From Candidatus Paceibacterota bacterium (GTDB lineage: Bacteria; Actinomycetota; Actinomycetes; Nanopelagicales; Nanopelagicaceae): 64,000 nucleotides of DNA. The position numbers and the translations under genes are program-made. Position 1 is the first letter of the stretch; every line of letters begins with the position of its first letter. Of the stretch, positions 1 to 14,150 are shown piece after piece. Where the stretch lies: positions 372,001-436,000 of the forward strand of contig DATKUL010000001.1 in assembly GCA_035530615.1 (NCBI GenBank), given 5' to 3'. The notes beneath the pieces are model-generated. The model did no database searches. It had not been told where the DNA came from and worked only from the letters and a program-made list of their open reading frames with translations.

Positions 1-1159
1 TAATTAATCCGCCGCTTGCGATTGTCGGTCGTACGCCTATGCGCTCAGCCATAAATCCAACTAGCGGAGAACCCAGTGGTGCGCCGCCCATGAATACAAA
101 AAGATAAATACCCATAACTCGTCCGCGGAGTACTGGGTCCGTATTCACTTGCATCAGGGAATTGGCGGCGATCATGGTTGTGAGCGTTGCAAAACCACAA
201 ACAGGCAACCACATTGCGTAGAGAGTAAAGGTGGGCATCAGAGCCAAAATCATGAGAGCCACTCCAAAGGAGAGGCTTCCATAAACAACAAACATCGTCT
301 TTCTAAATCGCTCTAAGCGGGCGGAAAGCAACGCCCCGCTAAGTGAACCGATTGCAATGATTGTTCCGAGCAATCCAAAGGATGCGGCTCCGCGATGAAA
401 TATTTTTGTCGCAGCGAGAGCGTTAAAGATTTGGAAATTGAGCCCAAACGTCGCCATAAAGAAGACGACAATCATTATTGCGTAGAGATCGGGACGGGCC
501 TTTACATAACGTATGCCCTCTCTCACGCTACCCATACTCGTGCTCCGTGGCATGAAGAAGAATTCACTCTTTCGAAGAGTTAAGAGGGCAGTTATTACGA
601 TGAGATATGAGCCTGAATTAAGCAGAAAGGAAGGACCGGTGCCAAAGACGGCAATTGAGGCTCCCGACAGCGCAGGCCCAATGAGGCGACCAGCATTGAA
701 GTTTGCAGAGTTGAGACTAACTGCATTACCGACATCAGAGTGACCCACAACCTCGGTAATGAAACTCGCGCGAACGGGATTATCAACAGCATTTGCAACT
801 CCAAGAGCAAACGCAAGAACAAAAACGTGCCATAGTCGCGCTTGGTGAATTGTTACCAGCAATCCCAATATTCCCGCAGACAATCCTCCGCCCACATTGG
901 TGAAAATGAGAACTTTCCGTTTATCAAATCGGTCTGCGAGCGCGCCACCATGAAGGCTAAAAAAGAGAACAGGTGTGAATTGCAGCGCGGTCACGAGTCC
1001 CAAATACGAGCCGTTGTTATTTGTAAGTTCGAGTACAAGCCAATCTTGGGCAATTCTCTGCGCCCAACTTCCAATATTTGAAATCGTATTTGCTGCGAAG
1101 AGGATTCTAAAATTACGATGGCGAAAAGAACGCCAATTACCATTCTCTTTCACACGCAC
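1..1159 (-). CDS. MFS transporter, EntS/MFS_3-like exporter (3' end cut by window edge)
   Basis: An open frame runs from a GTG at 1159 to the window edge without a stop, so the C-terminus is missing. A strong AGGAGG lies 8 nt before the GTG, which decides the start; no ATG start was needed. The N-terminus reads as F-R-x-L-F-A-A-N-T followed by a first transmembrane helix and the MFS loop motif G-G-A-L-A-D-R-F-D-K-R. Several further hydrophobic segments follow and a second G-F-M-A-E-R loop is seen near position 60. These are typical of 12-TM major facilitator drug/siderophore exporters of the EntS type. Substrate cannot be read from the sequence. It is divergent from the small membrane protein at 1207. 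Confidence 0.85.
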   Translation of the reverse strand, partial: MRVKENGNWRSFRHRNFRILFAANTISNIGSWAQRIAQDWLVLELTNNNGSYLGLVTALQFTPVLFFSLHGGALADRFDKRKVLIFTNVGGGLSAGILGLLVTIHQARLWHVFVLAFALGVANAVDNPVRASFITEVVGHSDVGNAVSLNSANFNAGRLIGPALSGASIAVFGTGPSFLLNSGSYLIVITALLTLRKSEFFFMPRSTSMGSVREGIRYVKARPDLYAIMIVVFFMATFGLNFQIFNALAATKIFHRGAASFGLLGTIIAIGSLSGALLSARLERFRKTMFVVYGSLSFGVALMILALMPTFTLYAMWLPVCGFATLTTMIAANSLMQVNTDPVLRGRVMGIYLFVFMGGAPLGSPLVGFMAERIGVRPTIASGGLI

Positions 1160-3659: not shown

Positions 3660-4433
3660 TTATGCGCTCGCAGAAGCACTTGGGGATGGAGACGTGCTCG
3701 AAGTTGGGGATGCACTTGGGGATGGAGACGTGCTCGAAGTTGGGGATGCACTTGGGGATGCTGTTGGGGTAGCGAGGTGAAGCGCGGCAATCGCGGCACG
3801 GAAGGCAGTATTGGCAGCCTGCAACGCAGTGTTCAATGCCACTTGGGCAGTGCTTACCGCAGTTTTGTATGTTGCAAGTGCGGCTGCAGTTGCGCTCTTG
3901 TAAGCAGTTTCAGCAGTTTTCACCGCTGCCTTAAATACACTCTTGGCGTCCTCTTTGGCTTGTTCAGTAGTTGCAGCAGCAAGAGCGGCAGCGTAGGCAG
4001 TCTTAGCTGCATCAATTGCGCTCTTCTCTATTGCGACTGCTGGTGCAGCAGCACCCTGGAAAGCATCACGTGCTGCCTTGGTCGCATTTTGGAAAGTTGC
4101 GACAGCCGCATTTCTCGCGTTCTGATAAACAGTGAGCGCTGCGGTGATAGCAGGATCGGTTTTGCCTTTCTTTGTGAACTTCTTGGCCAGAGCACGCGCT
4201 TGTGCTTCCAAACTCTTGCCTTCATTTTCAAATTTCTTACCCTTATTTTCTAGACTTCGGTTATTCCACTTTGGTGCGGAAGGAATAGAGGGGGATGAAA
4301 TTTCGCTTTTCTTTCCGCCTTTTCCTTGGTTGCCCTTGCCCTCTGAAGCCATAGCGAGTGGCGATGCTGCGGCAACAATGAGCAATGCAGAACTGGCGGC
4401 GACTATTACATTAAATGTCTTTCTCGAAATCAC
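3660..4433 (-). CDS. secreted alanine-rich coiled-coil protein with Ser/Pro/Thr tail
   Basis: A signal peptide is clear: basic start, hydrophobic stretch of alanines, valines and leucines, and an A-M-A-S cleavage site near residue 29. Residues 30-85 are lysine-rich. Residues 90-215 are an alanine-rich heptad-like region in which A-x-x-A-A-x-x-A-Y and A-x-x-T-A segments recur, predicting a long helical coiled coil. The tail (about 217-257) is T-A-S-P-S-A-S-P-T-S-S repeats, a wall-spanning or glycosylation-type linker. No enzyme motif is seen. A stalk or cell-surface structural role is inference. The coding DNA of the tail contains a 36-bp tandem repeat. Confidence 0.75.
   Translation of the reverse strand: MISRKTFNVIVAASSALLIVAAASPLAMASEGKGNQGKGGKKSEISSPSIPSAPKWNNRSLENKGKKFENEGKSLEAQARALAKKFTKKGKTDPAITAALTVYQNARNAAVATFQNATKAARDAFQGAAAPAVAIEKSAIDAAKTAYAAALAAATTEQAKEDAKSVFKAAVKTAETAYKSATAAALATYKTAVSTAQVALNTALQAANTAFRAAIAALHLATPTASPSASPTSSTSPSPSASPTSSTSPSPSASASA
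3676..3760. repeat. 36-bp tandem repeat encoding the Ser/Pro tail
   Basis: Two identical 36-bp units (3676-3711 and 3712-3747) are followed by a third partial unit. Each encodes 12 residues of the S-P-T-S-S-T type repeat. Identical copies at DNA level point to recent slippage or unequal crossover, so tail length may vary between strains. Confidence 0.85.
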
Positions 4434-10831: not shown

Positions 10832-11353
10832 TCAGCAATCCAACGGCTCTAATACTCCAGTGCTCACGTCATAAATTGCGCCAGCCACCACCACGCCCTT
10901 TCGCAGAAGCGGGTACGAGCGAATCCGCATGAGATCGGTCGCGAGCGCCTGGCGCTGATCTCGATCCGTTCTAAATTCAAGGCTGCGAGTATCGACTCCG
11001 TACTGTTCAAAGATCGTTGCGTGAATATCCGCTTCGTTGCTCTGCGCCATTCGGCAGTCGGTATGAGGCATGACCAGAATCCGATCGACTCCCAGCAGGT
11101 AAGTCGCAAGGACCAGAGTGCGTAGTACATCCTCTGTCACCCGGGCACCGGCATTTCGCAAAATCTTGGCATCCCCTGACGCCATCCCAACTACAGCAAG
11201 GGGGTTAATCCGCGAATCCATACAGGTCACGATCGCCAAGCCCTGCGCCGCCGTCCCCGTGAGTTCTCGGCCTTGGAAATTCGCGACAAAACCCTTATTT
11301 GCGCTTAAGACATCTTTAAATGCCTCCGCTGGGAAAGTGCCTGGCTCCATCAT
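10832..11353 (-). CDS. beta-carbonic anhydrase
   Basis: The 173-residue enzyme interconverts CO2 and bicarbonate. Zinc ligands are visible as C-M-D-S-R (cysteine plus the Asp-Arg dyad) and H-T-D-C-R-M (histidine and cysteine). The size fits the short, Rv1284-like clade. In that clade the last motif is commonly H-T-D-C-G-M; the arginine after the zinc cysteine is unusual. Two adjacent ATGs (11353 and 11350) are possible. It begins the transcript that continues into murT-gatD. Confidence 0.88.
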   Translation of the reverse strand: MMEPGTFPAEAFKDVLSANKGFVANFQGRELTGTAAQGLAIVTCMDSRINPLAVVGMASGDAKILRNAGARVTEDVLRTLVLATYLLGVDRILVMPHTDCRMAQSNEADIHATIFEQYGVDTRSLEFRTDRDQRQALATDLMRIRSYPLLRKGVVVAGAIYDVSTGVLEPLDC

Positions 11354-11468
11354 CCTGCAAGTCTACTGAGTCAAAAATCTCACTCGTTGGTTGTAACGCA
11401 GGGGCCTTTCCAATCGTTCTAAGCACCAGATACCCACATACCCCACTAACCCCATTGGGAGGATTGCC

Positions 11469-11906
11469 ATGAAAGCCCTCAACCGGAACCATCTCGCCGC
11501 CATCGCGGTAGGAGCCCTGCTCCTCTCTGGTTCCAATCTGGCTCTGGCCCAGGCTGACAATCACAAGAAAGAAAACTCTCACCCCAAGCACGCAAAAAAG
11601 GTCGAACCGATCAAAATCAAGGGCGGGGTAGGTGTACTGATCCTGGATACGAGCACAGTTGTTCCTACATTCCAGTTCGACACCTCAACCGTGGTACCCC
11701 GCATTGAAATCGACGCAGACCACACCCCACGCTTTGATACAAGCACCGCCACCTCGCCATGGCCCCCACTCCAATTCCCCGCTGAAACCAGCTCCCACCA
11801 TGGAGACGATGGAGACGATGGAGACGATGAGGGCGATGAGGGCGATGAGGGCGATGACGACTCGGGAATCGTCTCTTCCTCGCCGCTGGGCATCCGCGAA
11901 GGCTGA
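11469..11906 (+). CDS. secreted protein with DTST repeats and an Asp/Glu-rich tail
   Basis: A 145-residue exported protein: signal peptide about residues 1-28 ending A-L-A-Q-A, a basic region rich in His and Lys (29-50), then three spaced D-T-S-T motifs (D-T-S-T-V-V-P twice, D-T-S-T-A once). The C-terminus is a run of G-D-D and E-G-D triplets encoded by perfect 9-bp repeats. Acidic tails of this kind can bind calcium or other cations, which is inference. A GGGAGG ribosome site precedes the ATG. It lies 45 nt upstream of an ECF sigma gene on the same strand. Confidence 0.7.
   Translation: MKALNRNHLAAIAVGALLLSGSNLALAQADNHKKENSHPKHAKKVEPIKIKGGVGVLILDTSTVVPTFQFDTSTVVPRIEIDADHTPRFDTSTATSPWPPLQFPAETSSHHGDDGDDGDDEGDEGDEGDDDSGIVSSSPLGIREG
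11802..11855. repeat. 9-bp tandem repeats encoding the acidic tail
   Basis: Three copies of GGAGACGAT are followed by three copies of GAGGGCGAT, in frame with the gene (G-D-D x3, E-G-D x3). Such repeats expand and contract easily, so the tail length may be strain variable. Confidence 0.9.
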
Positions 11907-11951
11907 AGAGAGTTAATCTTTGAGGCAACACCGCAAAAGGGTTAGGGGCAG

Positions 11952-12524
11952 ATGGAAGAGTCAGAAGAAAAGATCGGCAATGCGCACGAGCAGAGTGAAG
12001 AGTTCACCGATGCTCCATCCGATCTGCCTGATTACGACAAACTAGTAGAGGAGGCAATCCGTGGCAGCGATTCAGCATTCACCCTTCTGTGGCGACACTT
12101 CCAGCCACGCATGGTCCGCTACCTCGCCATGTTTACCAATGATCCAGAAGACCTCTCCTCGGAAGTTTGGATCAAAGTTGCGACGTCAATTAAGGGCTTT
12201 GACGGTGACTCCAAGGCCTTTAGGGGATGGATTTACACGATTGCTCGAAATTCCGCCACTGACCTGGCGCGAAAAAGAAAGCGAGAAGGAGTCACGTCCG
12301 AACTTCATGATGGAGATTGGATGGGTGAGAACTCCACAATGGTCGAGGTCATGGATCTGATTAAGAAATTGCCGCAAGAGTACGCAGAAATCATCATGCT
12401 ACGGGTAGTTGCAGACCTGGAAGTAAATGATGTGGCTGAAATCGTAGGTAAAACACCTGGAAATGTAAGGGTACTAACGCACCGCGGACTCAAACAGCTT
12501 AACGAAATGCTCTCAAGGGGGTGA
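11952..12524 (+). CDS. ECF-family RNA polymerase sigma factor
   Basis: The 190-residue protein has a sigma-70 region 2 (about residues 48-115, with W-x-x-F-x-P-R-M-V-R-Y and F-R-G-W-I-Y-T-I-A-R-N, the -10 recognition helix) and region 4 (about 133-185, L-P-Q-E-Y-A-E-I-I-M-L-R-V-V-A-D-L and the helix-turn-helix V-A-E-I-V-G-K-T-P-G-N-V-R-V). The first 30 residues are acidic. AGGGGCAG precedes the ATG. The next gene, 6 nt downstream, encodes a single-pass membrane protein placed where an anti-sigma factor is expected. Confidence 0.9.
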   Translation: MEESEEKIGNAHEQSEEFTDAPSDLPDYDKLVEEAIRGSDSAFTLLWRHFQPRMVRYLAMFTNDPEDLSSEVWIKVATSIKGFDGDSKAFRGWIYTIARNSATDLARKRKREGVTSELHDGDWMGENSTMVEVMDLIKKLPQEYAEIIMLRVVADLEVNDVAEIVGKTPGNVRVLTHRGLKQLNEMLSRG

Positions 12525-12530
12525 TGCAGA

Positions 12531-13193
12531 ATGAATAAAAATAAAGATTTTTCGCTGGAAGATAGCGAAGATTTAATCAACAATCTCAAGTCGAACGCTG
12601 CACCCGAGTTTGAGAAATTGCGAAGCACGCTTAACCTACTCTCGCATGTACACGATCTTTCACCTATTTCGATTCCACCGGTACTTCCGTCTGAGATTGG
12701 CCAGCCAGTTCAGCTCCTCACTGGCAGGATCTCTCACACGAGACGAACTGTGGTCACATCAATTCTTTCAGTGGGAATTCTGGCTTCTGCATCCCTTGCC
12801 GCCGCTGCTGTTACAGGAAGAGGACCGGCTCCCATAGTGAGTGCGGGCCACCAGAGCGCAAAAGTTGTTAAAGCAGTTGCCGGCGCCATCAGTGAGGTCG
12901 TAACAGGAAAGAGCGATGCGTCTCCAGTAAAGCCTGCATCAACCATCAGCAACCCCGCGCTTGCCCCAGGTGGGGTAGATGAGGATGATTCTGATGGCCG
13001 AAAAAATTCAGAGCATTCACTAGTTGGTCCGTCATCACTCCCATCGTCGCTTCCAACTTCCGAAAGCGACGATGATGAGGGACTTTCACTTTCAGTTACG
13101 GTATCTCCTGCACCCACAACAATAAAACCTTCTGGAATACCGAAACCCACAACACAGCCAGAAGATGATGAAGAGGATGAAGAGGACGACTAA
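12531..13193 (+). CDS. putative membrane anti-sigma partner with acidic extracytoplasmic tail
   Basis: A 220-residue single-pass protein: cytoplasmic part about 1-78, transmembrane segment about 80-101 (V-V-T-S-I-L-S-V-G-I-L-A-S-A-S-L), then an extracytoplasmic region of low complexity rich in Ser, Pro and Asp, ending E-D-D-E-E-D-E-E-D-D. It follows the sigma gene by 6 nt, the classic anti-sigma position. No zinc-binding H-x-x-x-C-x-x-C motif of ZAS anti-sigma factors is present, so the role is inferred from position and topology only. Its acidic tail echoes that of the secreted protein at 11469. Confidence 0.6.
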   Translation: MNKNKDFSLEDSEDLINNLKSNAAPEFEKLRSTLNLLSHVHDLSPISIPPVLPSEIGQPVQLLTGRISHTRRTVVTSILSVGILASASLAAAAVTGRGPAPIVSAGHQSAKVVKAVAGAISEVVTGKSDASPVKPASTISNPALAPGGVDEDDSDGRKNSEHSLVGPSSLPSSLPTSESDDDEGLSLSVTVSPAPTTIKPSGIPKPTTQPEDDEEDEEDD

Positions 13194-13204: not shown

Positions 13205-13312
13205 CTACTTATTCTTCTCTTTCTTCTCCTGCTTCTTCGCACGCTTCTCTTTGAGAGAGAGTTTTGGTTCTTTCTTCTGGTTCGCGTTGCTCTTCTGTTC
13301 CTTATTTGCCAT
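13205..13312 (-). CDS. 35-residue lysine-rich basic protein
   Basis: A short frame, M-A-N-K-E-Q-K-S at the start and K-K-E-K-N-K at the end, with roughly 40% lysine. GGAGTG lies about 6 nt before the ATG. Codons are coding-like and the whole frame is nearly free of hydrophobic residues. Small basic proteins of this type may bind nucleic acid or ribosomes; no function is known to me. It is convergent with the anti-sigma-like gene and ends 11 nt from its stop. Confidence 0.6.
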   Translation of the reverse strand: MANKEQKSNANQKKEPKLSLKEKRAKKQEKKEKNK

Positions 13313-13421: not shown

Positions 13422-14150
13422 ATGCTGGGATTTGCAATCACAGTCATTGCGGGGCTCGTCGTCGGCACAATCAACGGAATGGCTGGTGGGGCTTCTCTCA
13501 TTTCCTACCCAGTCCTGCTCGCACTCGGACTTCCTCCCGTTGATGCGGCAATTACAAATGCCTTGGGTGTCTCCAGCGCCAATCTATTTGCTATTCGAGC
13601 CGGAGAGCACACTGCAGTAAAACTTATTAAGGACTATAAACGGCTCATCATCATTTCCACTATCTGCGCCTTAATTGGAGCGACACTTCTCCTAATCTTT
13701 CCCCCAAACATCTTCGAACACGTCGTTCCATTTCTATTGCTGGCAGCCACACTCACCCTTCTACTGCCAACCAAACCTCGCCTCAGCCGACGCAATGAAA
13801 TTGCCGAAACACTTGGCATTGCCTCAAGTGGGCTTTACTGCGGATATTTCGGACCTGGTCAGGGTGTCATGGTGATTACATCTCTGGCGCGAAACCCCAA
13901 AGATCCAGCAACTCTCAACGCAGCAAAAAATATCATCGTCGGAGTCACGAGCATCGCATCAAACATCGTCTACGTATTTAGCGGTCACGTGTACTGGTCG
14001 CTTGCCTTTGCCTTGTTCCTTGGTTCGAGCATCGGCGGAACCCTCGGTGGCCGGTGGGCAACCAAGATGTCTCCGCTATTTTACAGAGTGCTTGTCATGA
14101 GTGTTGGATTTGGAGCCTCAATCTGGCTCTTCATCAAGTACTTCTTCTAA
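13422..14150 (+). CDS. TauE/SafE-family membrane transporter
   Basis: The 242-residue protein is almost entirely hydrophobic, with about seven or eight transmembrane helices in two repeats. Family signatures are G-x-I-N-G-M-A-G-G-A-S-L-I-S-Y-P near residue 17 and Y-F-G-P-G-Q-G near residue 147, the paired G-G and G-P-G loops of TauE/SafE anion exporters. Members export sulfite, sulfoacetate or related organosulfur anions. There is no sulfur gene nearby, so the substrate is open. A second, distinct member lies at 61301. Confidence 0.85.
   Translation: MLGFAITVIAGLVVGTINGMAGGASLISYPVLLALGLPPVDAAITNALGVSSANLFAIRAGEHTAVKLIKDYKRLIIISTICALIGATLLLIFPPNIFEHVVPFLLLAATLTLLLPTKPRLSRRNEIAETLGIASSGLYCGYFGPGQGVMVITSLARNPKDPATLNAAKNIIVGVTSIASNIVYVFSGHVYWSLAFALFLGSSIGGTLGGRWATKMSPLFYRVLVMSVGFGASIWLFIKYFF

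Follow-up and report, generated by a model that had tools for sequence, protein, structure and literature searches.

Organization and distribution of the cassette

The window, that is, the entire 64,000-nucleotide stretch of DNA analyzed here, contains three tandem genes, denoted A, S and M, which encode a predicted exported protein, an ECF sigma factor and a membrane protein, respectively. The features of the cassette and its borders are as follows (coordinates within the window, strand, description).

10832–11353, minus strand: carbonic anhydrase-like gene, left border of the cassette
11392–11418, plus strand: predicted ECF-type promoter TGTAAC-N17-CGTT before gene A
11469–11906, plus strand: gene A, exported 145-aa protein with an acidic tail (ORF with a ribosome-binding site)
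11646–11756, plus strand: DTST-type repeats of A, residues 60–96
11800–11857, plus strand: 9-bp tandem repeats coding for the GDD/GDE tail of A (11800–11829, 3.3 copies; 11825–11857, 3.7 copies)
11952–12524, plus strand: gene S, ECF sigma factor, 190 aa (Pfam, NCBIfam and 10 orthologues)
12531–13193, plus strand: gene M, single-pass membrane protein, 220 aa, proposed anti-sigma factor
12531–12746, plus strand: cytoplasmic part of M, two helices, no Cys, proposed sigma-binding part
12747–12815, plus strand: membrane helix of M, residues 73–95 (taken as such from the AlphaFold model)
12906–13190, plus strand: outer low-confidence tail of M, rich in S/T/P and D/E
13205–13312, minus strand: very basic ORF of 35 codons, right border of the cassette
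13422–14150, plus strand: TauE/SafE-type permease gene, right flank

The preliminary description of this DNA had placed the three genes in tandem, and its coordinates proved exact; all three lie on the plus strand. The S and M genes overlap by 4 bases at 9 of the 11 loci that contain the trio and by a single base in G010; in the window, they are separated by a gap of 6 bases. Within the A-S-M operon, a scan for sigma-70 promoters detected no promoter-like site, and a terminator scan yielded three terminator-like sites, all on the opposite strand and not above the chance level.

All three genes are present in the same 11 of the 21 genomes of the genus that were compared, and the remaining 10 genomes match none of them. 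The orthologues of S, defined by E-values up to 1e-30 (11 genomes, including that of the window), are 70–84% identical to the window protein, and more distant sigma factors were found in other genomes. The relatives of M were sought in 60 genomes (E up to 0.001) and those of A in 37 genomes (E up to 0.1); the weakest matches to A, in G009, G010 and G019 (E-values of 3e-4 to 1e-3), nevertheless occupy the same position before S. When a profile of A was compared with the class, 2 of the 296 sampled genomes matched, both of which carry the trio. Among the loci included, L044–L048 come from metagenome-assembled actinobacteria. The preliminary description had named loss of the trio's conservation as grounds for abandoning its proposal; the co-occurrence in 11 of 21 genomes shows the trio to be conserved.

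The carbonic anhydrase gene is found in 19 of the 21 genomes of the genus (the search gave no match in G001 and G015) and adjoins the trio in 10 of the 10 other trio genomes, and the small basic ORF immediately follows M at all 9 trio loci that reach that far. In each of the 7 trio-lacking genomes with readable flanks (G003, G006, G007, G008, G011, G012 and G016; in G005, the contig ends at this point), no gene lies between the carbonic anhydrase gene and the small basic ORF, and 3 of these 7 empty sites extend as far as the TauE-type gene. Because the flanking genes close up in all 7 cases, the A-S-M genes are, judging from the arrangement of the flanks, gained or lost together, as one unit. 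A phage origin of A was considered and rejected, the search having returned no phage match (E-values of only 0.03 for A and 0.09 for M against PHROG).

The sigma factor and its membrane partner

The S protein consists of sigma-70 regions 2 and 4 only (Pfam Sigma70_r2, E=1.4e-13; Sigma70_r4_2, E=3.9e-11, both over the cut-off) within about 190 aa and scores 76.7 against the NCBIfam sigma70-ECF cut-off of 42.9, which identifies it as an ECF sigma factor. Assignment to the ShbA or BldN subfamilies was rejected, with scores of 84.9 and 84.6 against NCBIfam cut-offs of 209 and 206.45, respectively. In a tree of 25 sigma factors, from which the S protein of G014 was left out, the 10 trio members form one group (support 100/100). 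The placement of S among the RsdA-linked sigma factors was likewise rejected: the four RsdA-linked sequences (two with partners over the PF16751 cut-off and two with partners just under it), together with one other, lie behind a branch supported at 100/99 that does not include the trio. Given this separate placement and the ShbA and BldN scores far below the cut-offs, S is, by these sequence comparisons, a divergent ECF group with BldN/sigma-D-like logic and a member of neither.

The AlphaFold model of M is poor (mean pLDDT of 49, best block 81) and contains helices at residues 9–21, 25–38, 73–95 and 100–125, followed by a low-confidence tail that ends in EDDEEDEEDD in the window's genome. With the helix at 73–95 as the membrane span, this agrees with the earlier reading of M as a single-pass protein with a D/E-rich outer tail. 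The two helices of the N-terminal, cytoplasmic part are predicted at modest confidence. No Cys occurs in residues 1–72 of any of 10 M proteins (the contig-cut G014 protein was excluded), and therefore the zinc motif of class I anti-sigma factors (Hx3Cx2C) is absent. The lack of this motif, which had been presented as unusual, holds across the trio but is not unusual in itself: according to the excerpted text of a published survey, about 44% of the class I anti-sigma domains, and about half of the membrane-bound ones, are without it (PMC7406223).

Searches with M gave little to classify it by. There was no match in Pfam or NCBIfam, nor was an RsgI domain reported in these scans. The identification of M with RsdA was rejected after a search with PF16751 over 60 genomes, which gave no match at the locus; the window's genome gave a single weak match (E=0.38), on a different contig. 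Profile comparison by hhalign between M and the membrane partners of related sigma factors was not significant (E=0.05, 1% probability), and that with two RsdA-like proteins reached E=0.04 over the membrane helix only; the test is noisy, because a spurious 99.5% also came from 1 of the 30 column-shuffled controls. Among solved structures, M matched two chains, at no better than E=3.7, and a fold search with the M model produced one match (E=9.9).

The absence of a recognizable anti-sigma domain, along with the similarity in make-up between the M tail and the tails of the predicted targets discussed below, is what could be expected if M were not an anti-sigma factor at all but another surface protein of the operon, with S controlled by expression alone. 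We regard this as unlikely, given three features of the locus. First, there is the 4-base overlap of S and M at 9 of the 11 loci. Second, conservation in M is strongest in the cytoplasmic N-terminus: 18 of the 30 invariant columns in the 8-sequence alignment fall within residues 1–72 (G014, G009 and G004 are excluded from alignments A1 and A2), and the outer tail shows no sequence conservation. Third, of 14 loci from the class and the family that encode related sigma factors, 13 have a protein with a hydrophobic stretch next to the sigma gene, its start lying no more than 20 bases upstream or 25 bases downstream of the sigma stop codon; the exception is G044, where the contig ends, and on the trio side of the sigma tree the same holds for 7 of 8 loci. 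On account of the tandem overlap with S, the conservation of the cytoplasmic part and the matching arrangement at related sigma factors, the most likely role of M, to judge from its sequence and gene context, is that of an anti-sigma factor for S, and one without the zinc motif. In the class III anti-sigma factor RsbN, as described in the excerpted text of the same survey, helices bind sigma region 4 and region 2 (PMC7406223).

At one further locus (L032 in G043, about 1–473, minus strand), a related sigma factor is followed by a membrane protein and then by an exported-looking protein, an arrangement suggesting that a wider group of the class shares this logic.

The promoter motif and the predicted regulon

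The sequences TGTAAC and CGTT, 17 bases apart, are invariant before gene A at all 11 trio loci, and the surrounding sequence varies. The site at 11392–11418 is the only exact match to this motif in the window, compared with a mean of 0.05 in 100 shuffled windows, of which 5 contained one match. A set of 22 sites gives TGTAACG-N16-CGTT, with T or A two bases further and with G at position 7 in 18 of the 22; because the sites were picked by the core, only the G at position 7 and the T/A add information. The putative -35 element matches the GTAAC(A/G) given for the sigma-D promoter of Corynebacterium in the excerpted text of PMC6338062, where the -10 element is GAT and thus differs from the CGTT found here. 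The resulting promoter code, TGTAACG-N16-CGTT, is testable.

The motif is not enriched genome-wide: the window's genome contains 4 exact matches, compared with 6 for the reversed control, and in most genomes of the genus it is again the control that gives the larger number. The lack of enrichment and the small number of sites per genome fit the possibility that the motif is shared by chance and that the operon has no wider regulon. The location of the sites points the other way. Three of the four matches in the window's genome are intergenic, and each precedes an exported protein, namely, A, L120 and L122; the fourth touches the end of a transporter-like frame. L120 (227 aa, contig C1), which starts 97 bases after the motif, is an RTX protein with calcium-binding nonapeptide repeats recognized by sequence (PF00353, E=1.8e-36, 5 stretches), and L122 (135 aa, contig C3) is a second acidic exported protein.

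A search of 37 genomes for the acidic protein L122 gave matches in 5, those of the window, G017, G018, G013 and, weakly, G005 (E=7e-4). The motif precedes it in all 4 clear orthologues (the window's genome, G013, G017 and G018), all from trio genomes, and in the trio-lacking G005, the weak relative has TGTAAC with no CGT at 15–19 bases. Within the genus, matches to the RTX protein were limited to the window's genome and G017, and the motif is found before both, in G017 in the form TGTAAC-N17-CGTC. In G013, the motif also precedes a 203-aa exported protein. Directly behind the motif in four genomes are membrane peptides of 24–44 aa, L220 (G013), L254 (G020), L264 (G014) and L292 (G019), which are alike by eye and of the type MIVLAILPLLMIATLLGVALSF...; gene finders and annotation are likely to overlook such motif-linked peptides.

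Outside frames of 80 aa or more lie 17 of the 49 exact matches in the 11 trio genomes and none of the 15 in the 8 trio-lacking genomes of the genus that were scanned (G015 and G016 were left out). With the operon promoters removed, and without a match that falls at the extreme end of a long frame, the counts are 10 of 38 against 0 of 15 (one-sided Fisher test, p=0.024), where the sites include orthologous ones and are therefore not independent, and where the trio genomes tend to be larger. The frame test marks 5 of the 11 operon promoters, including that of the window, as lying inside such frames and therefore undercounts real sites.

The leading T of the motif served as an internal control: across 9 trio genomes, the sites outside frames number 11 of 33 where the T is present (a count that includes the match at the end of the long frame) and 9 of 74 where it is missing, the operon promoters being in neither set. 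The relaxed motif GTAAC-N17-CGTT was rejected, with the 9 no-T matches outside frames unexplained. Sites of this kind, marked intergenic, recur in G013 and G018 (L218 and L233; L228 and L232), which lends something to the chance reading. None of the intergenic no-T sites leads to a signal-bearing protein of at least 70 aa with a ribosome site 15–160 bases on; at one no-T site, L196, an exported-looking frame starts 11 bases after it. Taken against the motif's retention before the acidic protein (4 of 4) and the RTX protein (2 of 2), its position before the tiny membrane peptides in four genomes and the 0 of 15 in trio-lacking genomes, chance alone appears very unlikely. A wider regulon would bring orphan exported proteins of low complexity in this actinobacterial genus under a single regulator.

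Acidic tails, the proposed circuit and known systems

The A protein starts with a hydrophobic, signal-like stretch and, in the window's genome, has a tail of the GDD/GDE type, GDDGDDGDDEGDEGDEGDDD, encoded by the 9-bp repeats. The earlier account of A as an exported protein of 145 residues with G-D-D/E-G-D repeats is accurate here, but the repeats do not extend to the nearest relative, G017, the alignment with which (51% identity) lacks them. Common to all A orthologues is instead a DT(S/R)T-type repeat that the preliminary description had not mentioned, with 2–4 copies in 11 of 11. A gave no family at a meaningful score in Pfam or NCBIfam, and its AlphaFold model (mean pLDDT of 47) is nearly featureless, with one N-terminal helix and nothing else notable; therefore, no fold for the DTST repeats could be shown.

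From residue 29 onward, A carries a net charge of -15 in the window's genome and of -1 to -17 across the 11 genomes, with only -1 or -2 in G009, G010, G014 and G019. The outer part of M shows a comparable spread, -14 in the window's genome and -1 to -19 over the 9 complete proteins, with -1 in G010; the M proteins of G014 and G019 end at contig ends, the former being left out of the charge counts and the latter net positive over its sequenced part. These tails had been proposed to bind calcium or another metal, with occupancy controlling S. Strong acidity of both tails in the window's genome, the RTX calcium-repeat protein among the predicted targets and the 3–10 D/E found within the last 12 residues of all 9 complete M proteins (counted by eye) are compatible with such a role. 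Nevertheless, given that the charge is not constant and that the nearest relative lacks the 9-bp repeats, the tails are unlikely to be a conserved sensor, and the proposal in its original form is not upheld. Moreover, because gene A carries the ECF promoter, its product is, from the sequence evidence, more likely a target than a sensor and thus not an upstream partner of S. All in all, control of S by cation occupancy of the tails strikes us as distinctly improbable; a link to calcium of some kind, as an ion bound at the cell surface, is possible, since one predicted target is an RTX calcium-repeat protein.

The organization of the locus probably reflects an autoregulated ECF sigma/anti-sigma operon, the output of which would be exported and membrane proteins; A-S-M gives the impression of a regulatory unit devoted to the cell surface. 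In this scheme, S would recognize TGTAAC-N17-CGTT, and M would hold S at the membrane via its N-terminal two-helix part. The outer disordered tail of M would sense a signal, the favored type of cue being one from the envelope, upon which S would be released, probably by regulated proteolysis as inferred from the RsdA system. The freed S would then raise the production of A, S itself, M and other surface proteins, which in the window's genome are predicted to include the RTX calcium-repeat protein and the second acidic exported protein. A more elaborate, and most improbable, version is a circuit that monitors the coat: the sigma factor would build a layer of disordered acidic and calcium-binding proteins, the M tail, its make-up resembling that of its own targets, would compete with this layer for a shared ligand, either calcium or a wall polymer, and an unfinished coat would leave the tail free and the circuit on. 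With its natural presence in some genomes and absence from others, the trio offers a small system in which to study how the envelope is sensed by anti-sigma factors that have disordered tails.

Several elements of the autoregulated-operon scheme have precedents. Anti-sigma factors without the zinc motif and the disordered outer tail of RsdA are already known, and A and M match no known family here. RsdA is not known to have a zinc motif, nor RsbN to contain zinc, and RsgI is not known to be part of an ECF pair. Among the literature matches listed (titles and the starts of abstracts), no title concerned an A-S-M operon.

In Mycobacteriales, sigma-D and RsdA form a pair like the one proposed for S and M: the sigma factor is of the ECF type, and the anti-sigma factor sits in the membrane and carries a disordered outer domain; in the excerpted sources, this domain is about 160 aa long and is put forward as a signal sensor (PMC11175481), the sigma-D regulon concerns the envelope, and sigD-rsdA is putatively autoregulated in several genera (PMC6338062, PMC11175481). 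Unlike in that system, S falls outside the RsdA-linked sigma factors in the tree, M has no PF16751 match, the -10 element is CGTT rather than the GAT given for sigma-D in the excerpts of PMC6338062, and an exported protein is the first gene of the operon, of which the excerpts on sigma-D/RsdA make no mention (PMC6338062, PMC11175481).

In Streptomyces, sigma-BldN and RsbN resemble the arrangement proposed for the trio in that the anti-sigma factor is membrane-anchored and the sigma factor switches on exported surface proteins. According to the portions of PMC4255298 and PMC8103513 consulted, RsbN is an anti-sigma class of its own (III) and much more divergent than the BldN sigma factor, the targets of which are chaplins and rodlins. 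The differences are that S scores 84.6 against the BldN cut-off of 206 bits and that S, M and a target share an operon, whereas rsbN of S. venezuelae is stated in these portions to have its own promoter (PMC4255298, PMC8103513). The RsgI-type anti-sigma factors of Bacillus have, as is proposed for M, a disordered sensor region, said to sense cell-wall defects in work cited in the excerpts of PMC11175481, but no RsgI domain was detected in M by the Pfam and NCBIfam scans.

Two minor observations concern the DNA itself. Between A and S, a strong RNA hairpin is found in G010, G014, G018 and G020 (loci L022, L023, L017 and L024, respectively; z-scores of -3.8 to -4.8), and a weaker one in G013, G019 and G009 (-1.7 to -2.2); where strong, the hairpin might allow A to be made in excess over S. 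Because it is absent from the window's genome, as well as from G002, G004 and G017, it is no part of the explanation offered for the window. Positions 3676–3760 of the window hold 2.4 copies of a 36-bp unit repeated perfectly in tandem, and 12-bp units overlap this repeat.
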